Assembly: GCA_016649715.1 (NCBI GenBank)
Contig: JAENXC010000005.1
Location: 1 to 64,000 of the forward strand
DNA: 64,000 nucleotides
Source: Flavobacteriaceae bacterium
GTDB taxonomy: Bacteria > Bacteroidota > Bacteroidia > Flavobacteriales > Flavobacteriaceae
Reading direction: 5' to 3'
The notes under the pieces are model-generated. The model was not told the DNA's origin and made no database searches. It worked only from the letters and a program-made list of their open reading frames with translations. Made by a program: the position numbers and the translations under genes. This document shows positions 11,500-13,423 of this stretch, piece after piece; position 1 is the stretch's first letter; each line of letters starts with the position of its first letter.

Positions 11500-11724
11500 T
11501 TATTCAACTTCGTTTAAACGATTTTCATATTCTTCCAAAGAATAAAAGTTCATTTTCCCTTCTGAATGCTTTTTCAAACGACGGTCAAGTTCGGCTTTTT
11601 GAGAATCAGAAAGTTCGCGTTCTTGCTCACGTTTAAGCAATTGTTTTATTTCTTTCAAGACTTCTTCGCTTTCAGAATCCAACAATAGTTGTATTAGTTC
11701 AATTTTTTCTGTTTCAAGGTTCAT
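11500..11724 (-). CDS. Antitoxin of a decayed type II toxin-antitoxin pair
   Basis: The 74-residue protein is short, highly charged and helical: KIELIQLLLDSESEEVLKEI at the start, followed by a Lys/Glu-rich linker and the tail SLEEYENRLNEVE. This is the usual build of the addiction-module antitoxins that precede RelE/ParE toxins in Bacteroidota. The toxin remnant follows on the same strand. The antitoxin frame itself is intact and may now be an orphan, or may bind other toxins. Confidence 0.7.
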   Translation of the reverse strand: MNLETEKIELIQLLLDSESEEVLKEIKQLLKREQERELSDSQKAELDRRLKKHSEGKMNFYSLEEYENRLNEVE

Positions 11725-11763: not shown

Positions 11764-11991
11764 ACCACTTCCGCATAAAGATCAACCCTTCGACTTTAGT
11801 TTATCCTGAGCTTGTTGAAGGGCTCAGGGTGACAATTAGACCACTTCCGCATAAAGATCGACCCTTCGACTTTAGTTTATCCTGAGCTTGTCGAAGGGCT
11901 CAGGGTGACAATTAAACTACCTCGGCATAAAGATCGACCCTTCGACTTTAGTTTATCCTGAGCTTGTCGAAGGGCTCAGGGTGACAATTAA
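11764..11991. repeat. 76-bp tandem repeat, three copies, containing the rimO 3' end and a REP palindrome
   Basis: Units begin at 11764, 11840 and 11916, and the matching 5' part continues into rimO at 11992, an exact 76-bp period. Each unit has about 22 bases matching the last codons of rimO (DLYAEVV-stop on the minus strand) and a 50-bp palindrome built on CCCTTCGAC...GTCGAAGGG with GCTCAGGGTGACA. The rimO-like parts of the first two units differ from those of the last two only at third codon positions. Confidence 0.9.
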
Positions 11992-13289
11992 ACTACCTCG
12001 GCATAAAGATCAAAATCTTCAGCCGCCGTGATTTTTACTGTGAAGAATTCCCCGGTGCGAAGGTAGTCTGATTCGGCATTTATCAAAACTTCGTTGTCCA
12101 CATCCGGGCTGTCAAATTCAGTTCTGCCCACAAAATAACCTCCTTCTTTTCTGTCGATTACTACTCGGAATTCTTTTCCTATTTTTTGCTGGTTCAGTTC
12201 CCATGAGATCTGGCTTTGAATTTCCATAATTTCATTGGCGCGATCCATCTTTACCTCTTCCGGCACATCGTCTTCAAGATTGTAGGCGTGGGTATTTTCT
12301 TCGTGACTGTATGTGAAACATCCTAAACGCTCAAAACGCATCTCTTTTACCCATTGTTTTAGGGTTTGGAAATCTTCTTCGGTTTCGCCGGGATAGCCAA
12401 CTATTAAGGTAGTTCTTATTGCCATTTCGGGAACGGCAGCCCTAAATTCTTCCAACAATTTTGTGGTCTTGGCTTTAGTAGTTCCACGGCGCATCGACTT
12501 CAAAATTGAATCGGAAATATGCTGTAAAGGAATATCCAAATAATTACAGATTTTTGGTTCAGTGCGCATCACTTCCAAAACGTCCATCGGGAAACCCGTT
12601 GGGAATGCGTAGTGAAGACGGATCCATTCTATACCTTCTACCTTTGCGAGTTTTTGGAGCAGTTCTGCAAGGTTTCGTTTTTTGTATAAATCAAGTCCGT
12701 AATAGGTTAAATCCTGTGCGATCAAAATCAATTCTTTCACCCCTTTTGCTGCAAGTTTTTCGGCTTCAATAACCAAATCTTCCATTGGAGTGCTTCGGTG
12801 TTTTCCACGCATAATCGGTATTGCGCAGAACGAACACGGGCGGTCACAGCCTTCGGCAATTTTAAAGTAGGCGTAGTTTTTAGGAGTAGTTGTTACTCGT
12901 TCCCCAATCAATTCGTGTTTGTAATCCGCACCCAAAGCTTTCAACAAACCAGGAAGTTCGGTAGTGCCAAAATACTCATCCACATTCGGGATTTCCTTTT
13001 GCAGTTCCGGCTTATATCGTTCGGAAAGACAGCCTGTAACAAAAACCTTGTCCACCAAGCCTTCTTCCTTTTTTTGAACGTATTCCAAAATTGTATTGAT
13101 GCTTTCCTCCTTCGCATTATTAATAAATCCACAAGTATTGATCACCACAATATTGCCTTCCTCTTCGTGCACCACTTCTTTGTTGCTGGCGCGCAGTTGG
13201 CCCATCAACACCTCGCTGTCATACACATTTTTGGAGCAACCGAGGGTTACTACGTTTATTTTATTTTTCTTTATGGTTTTGGTACGCAT
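11988..13289 (-). CDS. rimO: Ribosomal protein S12 (aspartate 89) methylthiotransferase
   Basis: The 433-residue radical SAM enzyme adds a methylthio group to Asp88/89 of ribosomal protein S12. The N-terminal MTTase domain has Cys18 (TLGCSKN), Cys53 (NTCGFI) and Cys87 (TGCLSER) for one iron-sulphur cluster. The radical SAM cluster is C148-x3-C152-x2-C155 in EGCDRPCSFC. A TRAM domain follows near the C terminus (FRVVIDRKEGGYFVGRTEFDSPDVD). The ATG at 13289 (MRTKTIKKNKINVV) is preferred over one 18 bases upstream that lies in a C/G-run repeat. The promoter is at 13424-13453. The final codons have been duplicated downstream. Confidence 0.95.
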   Translation of the reverse strand: MRTKTIKKNKINVVTLGCSKNVYDSEVLMGQLRASNKEVVHEEEGNIVVINTCGFINNAKEESINTILEYVQKKEEGLVDKVFVTGCLSERYKPELQKEIPNVDEYFGTTELPGLLKALGADYKHELIGERVTTTPKNYAYFKIAEGCDRPCSFCAIPIMRGKHRSTPMEDLVIEAEKLAAKGVKELILIAQDLTYYGLDLYKKRNLAELLQKLAKVEGIEWIRLHYAFPTGFPMDVLEVMRTEPKICNYLDIPLQHISDSILKSMRRGTTKAKTTKLLEEFRAAVPEMAIRTTLIVGYPGETEEDFQTLKQWVKEMRFERLGCFTYSHEENTHAYNLEDDVPEEVKMDRANEIMEIQSQISWELNQQKIGKEFRVVIDRKEGGYFVGRTEFDSPDVDNEVLINAESDYLRTGEFFTVKITAAEDFDLYAEVV

Positions 13290-13423
13290 AAGCCCCCTAA
13301 CCCCCAAAGGGGGAATTTGTTTGTTATTTATAATTAATATAATGCCAAATCATATTATTATTGATTGACAGATTCAAAATATTGAACATTGAATATTGAA
13401 TATATTTAATATTTAAAAGCGTG

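Follow-up and report, generated by a model that had tools for sequence, protein, structure and literature searches.

REP-associated retirement of gene ends is real and recurrent in Aequorivita and some of its relatives, and is a variant of known REP and BIME biology. The recurrent order is live gene end, REP, spare end. Several congeners and two genomes from outside the genus have it at rimO, and it was also found at the 3′ end of hemB in two species and at the start (5′ end) of a DUF58 gene. At all three genes the GTCACC side of the GTCACC-type REP points toward the live gene. A layout of this kind, polar and recurrent, with a REP in place of a gene end and the former end kept behind it, lets the history of insertions be read at individual genes. 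Insertions of different ages are available, the young ones with spares that differ only silently and the old ones with decayed spares. The layout would also reveal the exchange between species of the last residues and the stop codon of conserved proteins. How REPs disseminate is called poorly understood in a passage of PMC8266576.

The rimO array

The window, that is, the whole stretch of DNA analysed (64,000 bases), comes from a marine Flavobacteriaceae genome of the genus Aequorivita (G000), assembled as a 71-contig draft. G019 is its sister species, and the other G and L labels stand for genomes and loci of relatives. The rimO gene was recognized by TIGR01125, with 500 bits against a cut-off of 357, and its TRAM_2 domain extends to the last residue. 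The start is probably the ATG at 13289, in a frame open from a TTG at 13307. At the end of the gene we found a tandem array of 253 bases (TRF period 76, 3.3 copies, score 436), whose parts are listed in Table 1.

Table 1 Features of the rimO array and its surroundings in the window.
Feature	Description	Position	Strand	Evidence
rimO	Live gene, ribosomal protein S12 methylthiotransferase	11988..13289	-	ORF, TIGR01125, TRAM_2
T1	Live rimO end, GATCTTTATGCCGAGGTAGTTTAA, GAT CTT TAT GCC GAG GTA GTT TAA (DLYAEVV-TAA)	11988-12011	-	
REP1	48-base REP-like element, GTCACC...GAAGGG	11938-11985	-	
T2	Second copy of the rimO end, exactly as T1	11912-11935	-	
REP2	Exactly as REP1	11862-11909	-	
T3	GATCTTTATGCGGAAGTGGTCTAA, outer codons GCG GAA GTG GTC with the inner stop and REP border (TAATT-GTCACC)	11836-11859	-	
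REP3	One base off REP1	11786-11833	-	
T4	Outermost copy, GATCTTTATGCGGAAGTGGTTAAATAA, DLYAEVVK-TAA	11757-11783	-	
Antitoxin-like ORF	Behind T4	11500..11724	-	PF09720 Unstab_antitox, 36.6 bits

TRF and the coordinates bear out the sequence-only reading of this DNA, which had described a 76-bp array that repeats the last codons of rimO together with REP-like palindromes. Some of its details needed correction. A palindrome follows T2 and T3, as it had said of every downstream copy, but none lies behind T4. Of the two nearest units said to be spelled like rimO, T2 is indeed so spelled, but the other, T1, is rimO itself. T3 and T4 have GCG GAA GTG where rimO has GCC GAG GTA. Over seven codons T1 and T4 differ by three bases, all at third positions, so that the claim of third-position differences only stands for these codons but not for the whole end, where T4 has one extra codon (AAA) ahead of its TAA. 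The exact word GCTCAGGGTG occurs three times in the window, always inside the array. Between 11600 and 12200, known structured RNA was considered and rejected, the two Rfam matches being far below gathering scores and belonging to eukaryotic snoRNA families.

The antitoxin-like ORF of Table 1 is also found behind rimO in G006 and G023. A broken toxin partner may lie between it and the next gene.

rimO ends in Aequorivita relatives

A search for relatives at rimO gave a match in 28/28 genomes of the genus (in G016 to the REP only). We read 27 rimO ends, namely our own, 25 near-complete congener loci and one fragment. By eye, a REP or its remnant lies at most about 10 bases from the rimO stop in at least 14 of the 27, and a recognisable second tail follows the REP in 11. 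Two of these 11 (G001 and G021) have a different palindrome, which is present in G019 as its second one. The second tails range from near-perfect (G019) to decayed (DFYLEDLK, GFYVAVVI, ALYVEVV, DLFAELV), and the DNA behind rimO varies widely between species.

T4 most probably represents the original end of rimO, because a live counterpart exists in G006. This genome has no REP at rimO, and its live tail directly precedes the same antitoxin gene as T4. The tail and the 261 bases behind it align to the T4 region, with 72% identity over 284 bases, from the first base of T4. In addition, rimO ends with EVVK-stop in several species lacking the REP and in the outgroup Patiriisocius marinus (L233). 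The earlier proposal that the outermost copy is the ancestral end held up, and in G019 a similar outer tail stands behind a single copy of the same REP.

It had further been proposed that each unit was once the live end. T4 probably was one and T3 may have been, but T1 and T2, like REP1 and REP2, are identical and look like the product of a tandem duplication of one cassette. None of the 27 rimO ends terminates at a T3-like copy. In G019, T1 is identical to that of the window and belongs to a single cassette identical to T1-REP1. Behind this cassette comes an outer tail like the live ones of G001 and G021, then another palindrome of a different kind, and last a decayed tail, the third at this locus.

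Recurrence at other genes and genomes

A second array in the window genome (G000:C7:33233 onward) lies at the start of the DUF58 gene, with a 53-base unit and three REPs. Twenty-six DUF58 loci were compared, 21 of them with readable starts, and by eye 9/21 had a REP and an outer copy and one more had a REP alone. The outer copies start with GTG, TTG or ATG, and the well-kept ones differ almost only silently from the inner ones. At the 3′ end of hemB the layout was present in 2/27 loci; that of G015 came to light, like the second array, when REP flanks were compared, and orthologue searches added G003 together with DUF58 in further species.

Outside Aequorivita, L254 and G344 carry it at rimO, at the same site and with the same border (GGG/TTGAT). 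The two tails around the REP of L254 are identical over 18 bases and look like a fresh event, as would be expected of one. In G344 the two rimO tails differ in four codons, all silently. Both loci may come from one genus, their rimO being 94% identical in protein and 81% in DNA; each shares about 88–89% protein identity with the window rimO.

The insertion borders are GGG/TTGAT at rimO and GGG/TCG at hemB and DUF58. The duplication measures 18 bases in L254, 28 at rimO and 29 at DUF58 in G000, and 12–15 in low-complexity flanks. Direct repeats scoring at least 10 flank 14/122 REP copies, counting several from the same arrays and some with low-complexity flanks, and 0/604 mismatched-flank controls, which argues that the duplications are not due to chance.

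In wide searches the tail-REP-tail pattern is rare. The rimO junction pattern gave seven matches in 397 genomes of the family, only those of G000 and G344 being at rimO and the other five elsewhere. The DUF58 junction pattern gave no match beyond G000 in the 397 family genomes, and neither did a junction search of 395 genomes of the order. When 228 sequences (the window and 227 loci) were scanned for hairpins flanked by direct repeats, nine rows came out and no clear new gene-end case; the scan is insensitive, since it also missed the DUF58 array.

The outer start copies of DUF58 (L202, which is G000, L204, L206, L212, L217 and L221) form mini-ORFs of 15–25 codons. In 6/6 species these end at the next start codon (ATGA, GTGA, TAATG) or at most 4 bases from it. 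Inner starts are ATG in 5/6 species, and outer starts GTG or TTG in 5/6. Such an arrangement might couple the former ribosome site to the new start. In several species REPs also occupy matching positions downstream of the same genes (L087, L088, L093, L099 and L118; L051, L075, L116, L126 and L149), and the REP sequence there is, by eye, often better conserved than its flanks.

Tails with a probably different history from their gene

Two comparisons at rimO set the live tail apart from the gene that carries it. Between G344 and its congener G156, 13/600 bases differ upstream (98% identity) and 9/25 in the live tail (P 1.6e-9). The retired tail of G344 differs from the live tail of G156 at 3/29 bases (P 0.02, a slight divergence). 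Because of these counts, the live tail and REP of G344 look like a small patch of alien sequence in an otherwise native gene. A donor of this tail was not found among the other rimO tails compared, the best of which agrees at 22/27 bases. The second comparison is between the sisters G000 and G019 (support 0.999, 86.5% identity over three genes). Their rimO genes differ at 80/600 bases upstream and at 21/100 next to the tail, and from the tail to the end of the REP there is no difference in 75 bases (P 1.8e-4 for at most 1 in 78; P 0.03 for the tail alone).

Homologous recombination over long tracts could also bring in a new gene end. A rimO of another species, with its REP, would then replace part of the gene, with the crossover in the tail where the DNA behind is non-homologous, and the REP would have no special role. 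The wide variation behind rimO is what this predicts, and congeners do seem to recombine. Behind hemB, the DNA of G007 (L185) and G011 (L177) is 94% identical, whereas hemB itself is 84% identical, a sign of recombination between species with the break at the gene end. The alien tract of G344 and the tract shared by G000 and G019, however, begin at most about 10 bases from the duplicated tail and not further upstream, and we regard long tracts as unlikely.

The outer hemB copy of G015 resembles those of its clade-mates less than the inner copy does (by eye). A join of two lineages whose outer side is foreign would fit this as well as import of the inner tail would, though the nearest relative does not clearly change in the DNA downstream of hemB in G015. 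Inner and outer DUF58 copies of one species are no closer to each other than those of different species (permutation rank 432/720, six species), a result that fits separate histories and carries little information. The DUF58 pairs may share one ancestral insertion.

Silent and amino-acid differences between tails

If a REP were simply inserted with a long target duplication, the two tails would start identical, after which the live (inner) one would change silently only and the dead (outer) one would drift neutrally. This was the null of our simulations. Together, rimO in G000 and G344 and hemB in G003 and G015 have 14 synonymous codons and one non-synonymous codon, against a null mean of 9.5 non-synonymous (0/20,000 simulations). 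DUF58 in five species has nine and one, against 7.3 non-synonymous (0/20,000 simulations), and 15 pairs including decayed ones have 35 and 18, against 37 (0/4,000 simulations). The window rimO locus taken alone, with three synonymous and no non-synonymous codons, is marginal (1005/20,000 simulations; P about 0.05), and single-locus tests are weak since the tails measure only 18–24 bases.

The strength lies in the pooled pattern and in no single locus, because the simulated pairs were chosen by hand among the alignable cases and the codon at the REP border and the DUF58 start codons were set aside. At that border, hemB has S inside and N outside in both species, and the K of rimO is missing inside. 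Cases with indels, decay or near-copies were left out as well (rimO in L013, L014, L020, L021 and L030, the third tail of G019, and DUF58 in L208 and L210), and rimO in G019 and L254 was listed yet kept out of the simulations.

Old retired copies of the rimO end have decayed, with two synonymous and four non-synonymous codons in G012 and one and five in G022. Spares with silent differences only have therefore probably been dead for a short time. Those of rimO and hemB nevertheless carry three to five silent base changes relative to the live end, so the live end seems to have brought the differences with it. On these counts, in-place duplication with neutral decay does not explain the silent differences of the young spares. 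Simple insertion does account for the identical tails of L254 and for the decayed outer tails of several species, but dead copies should gain more amino-acid than silent changes, and the pooled young pairs do the opposite. It is also at odds with the live tail of G344, so much more changed than the DNA upstream of it, and we hold it to be quite unlikely.

Selection might instead have kept the outer copies, for example because they are translated into leader peptides or because loss of the REP would bring them back as the gene end. The DUF58 mini-ORFs speak for it, as all six stop at or close to the next start, with three decayed cases outside this sample and with stops supplied by the REP and by the ATGA of the start; here the outer copy may still be translated. 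At rimO and hemB, by contrast, a stop codon stands ahead of the outer copy, and G000 has a further one before it in the copy's own frame. Protection of the outer copy as a general rule was rejected, several having decayed freely, and selection is in our opinion improbable.

An assembly artefact, to which a 71-contig draft and an array of 253 bases could give rise, has next to no probability, given that the units differ from each other, that the sister species, assembled separately, has the same cassette once, and that a REP at rimO is also present in genomes assembled as one contig, G022 among them. The array as such can hardly be a pure artefact with unequal units, and its copy number is unproven because the assembly is a draft; none of the single-contig genomes was seen to have a multi-unit array.

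Proposed mechanism

We favour, as moderately probable, a reading in which the insertion of a REP duplicates the gene end, cassettes of tail and REP move between lineages by short-tract recombination, and the array in G000 then grew in place. The recombination route, the order of events in G000 and the enzymes, if any, are what we infer. A REP-like element would insert at a gene end and duplicate about the last 18–31 bases, or the first ones where it lands at a 5′ end. Of the two copies, that facing GTCACC would become, or arrive as, the live end, and that facing GAAGGG would be retired. Cassettes would cross lineages through short-tract recombination anchored in the tail itself. A short fragment of a tail-REP-tail allele has tail homology at both ends and could convert a REP-less tail into donor tail, REP and recipient tail. 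The new live tail would then carry the codons of the other lineage, and the retired tail would keep those of the recipient.

Applied to the window, T3-REP3 would probably be the local first insertion, as T3 has the codons of the outer type but the stop and REP border of the inner copies. The T1-REP1 cassette would have come from the lineage of G019, or be common with it, and have been added later, and one tandem duplication of it would have given T2-REP2. The insertion borders and the variable length of the duplication hint at template switching that uses short homology, and speak less for a transposase, whose stagger would be fixed. That tails were exchanged with another lineage's rimO had already been suggested from the sequence alone. 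As the best reading, and as that only, the idea agrees with the codon simulations and with the comparisons of G344 with G156 and of G000 with G019.

A bolder version, possible but doubtful, is that the REP spreads by allelic homing. The 25–30 coding bases on its GTCACC side would serve as a targeting arm to the corresponding gene end of other species, the old end being left behind retired.

The REP element and known systems

The 48-base form of the REP has a predicted single-strand fold of -13.5 kcal/mol (z -2.1; 6/200 shuffles as good), and the 24-base form from DUF58 folds no better than its shuffles (z -0.01). The word GTCACCCTGAGC has 25 exact copies in its own genome, against 0 for the pattern read backwards, and used as a seed it has matches in 23/27 genomes. 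Near 85/142 REP copies, the stop of an open frame of at least 100 codons lies within about 60 bases. The element has the properties of a REP, being a short imperfect palindrome with many dispersed copies, mostly extragenic and near gene ends. The 25 exact copies of this word are fewer than the ‘more than 100’ per genome stated for REP elements in a passage of PMC2817692. A BIME has REPs in alternating orientation, whereas all three here point one way. The array is also unlike a CRISPR array, in which identical repeats separate different spacers, since its would-be spacers are near-identical REPs.

In the relevant passage of Nunvar et al. 2010 (PMC2817692), four cases are given in which the 3′ end of a rayt gene lies inside the inter-REP segment of an array. 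As in these REP/BIME cases, short palindromes here sit near gene ends and the 3′ end of a gene is built into an array. Compared with what that passage describes, the copied ends here belong to ordinary housekeeping genes, the spares differ synonymously from the live end, and the sole Y1 transposase gene is flanked by other palindromes. A RAYT with a cognate palindrome was not found in the genome, where the sole PF01797 match (C51:87447) is flanked by GTGCCAGCGGCAC-type repeats instead; a RAYT as the cause of this REP was rejected, as the palindromes differ. Behind the Y1 transposase gene at this locus (L064, G000:C51:87447) stand tandem units that belong to another palindrome family (GTGCCAGCGGCACGACCC and CCTTGGAATTTATTCCAAGG), and from this neighbourhood the gene is possibly a RAYT with its own repeats.

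REPs tagged with GTAG/CGTC supply stop codons to neighbouring ORFs, according to a passage of PMC3733652, and are similar to ours in lying so close to a gene that the end of the reading frame changes. That passage mentions neither a duplicated coding tail nor an alien tail patch. Our literature search, which covered titles and the beginnings of abstracts, with most subscription papers and bioRxiv outside its scope, found no tail-REP-tail duplication at housekeeping genes.

Integrative elements can bring a replacement 3′ end for a gene and displace the old end behind them. They share with our cases the incoming homologous gene end, but the insert here measures only about 50–80 bases and has no recombinase gene. 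Homing introns co-convert the flanking exon, and in both systems a short foreign flank travels along as the element passes from one allele to another. Here, in contrast, the flank is one-sided and duplicated, and no known endonuclease is present.

Two further places in the window genome have similar sequences. At a contig end, L003 (G000:C1:1-2100) holds a dense set of 48-base REP variants (GTCATGCTGAGTCC...GAAGCA), which sit between AAATCCC-type repeats around two small ORFs. In the window itself, a 172-base tandem duplication at 1905-2253 (98% matches) holds a REP-like palindrome pair (GTCACACTGAGCGCAG ... CTGCGCTCACCCTGAC).
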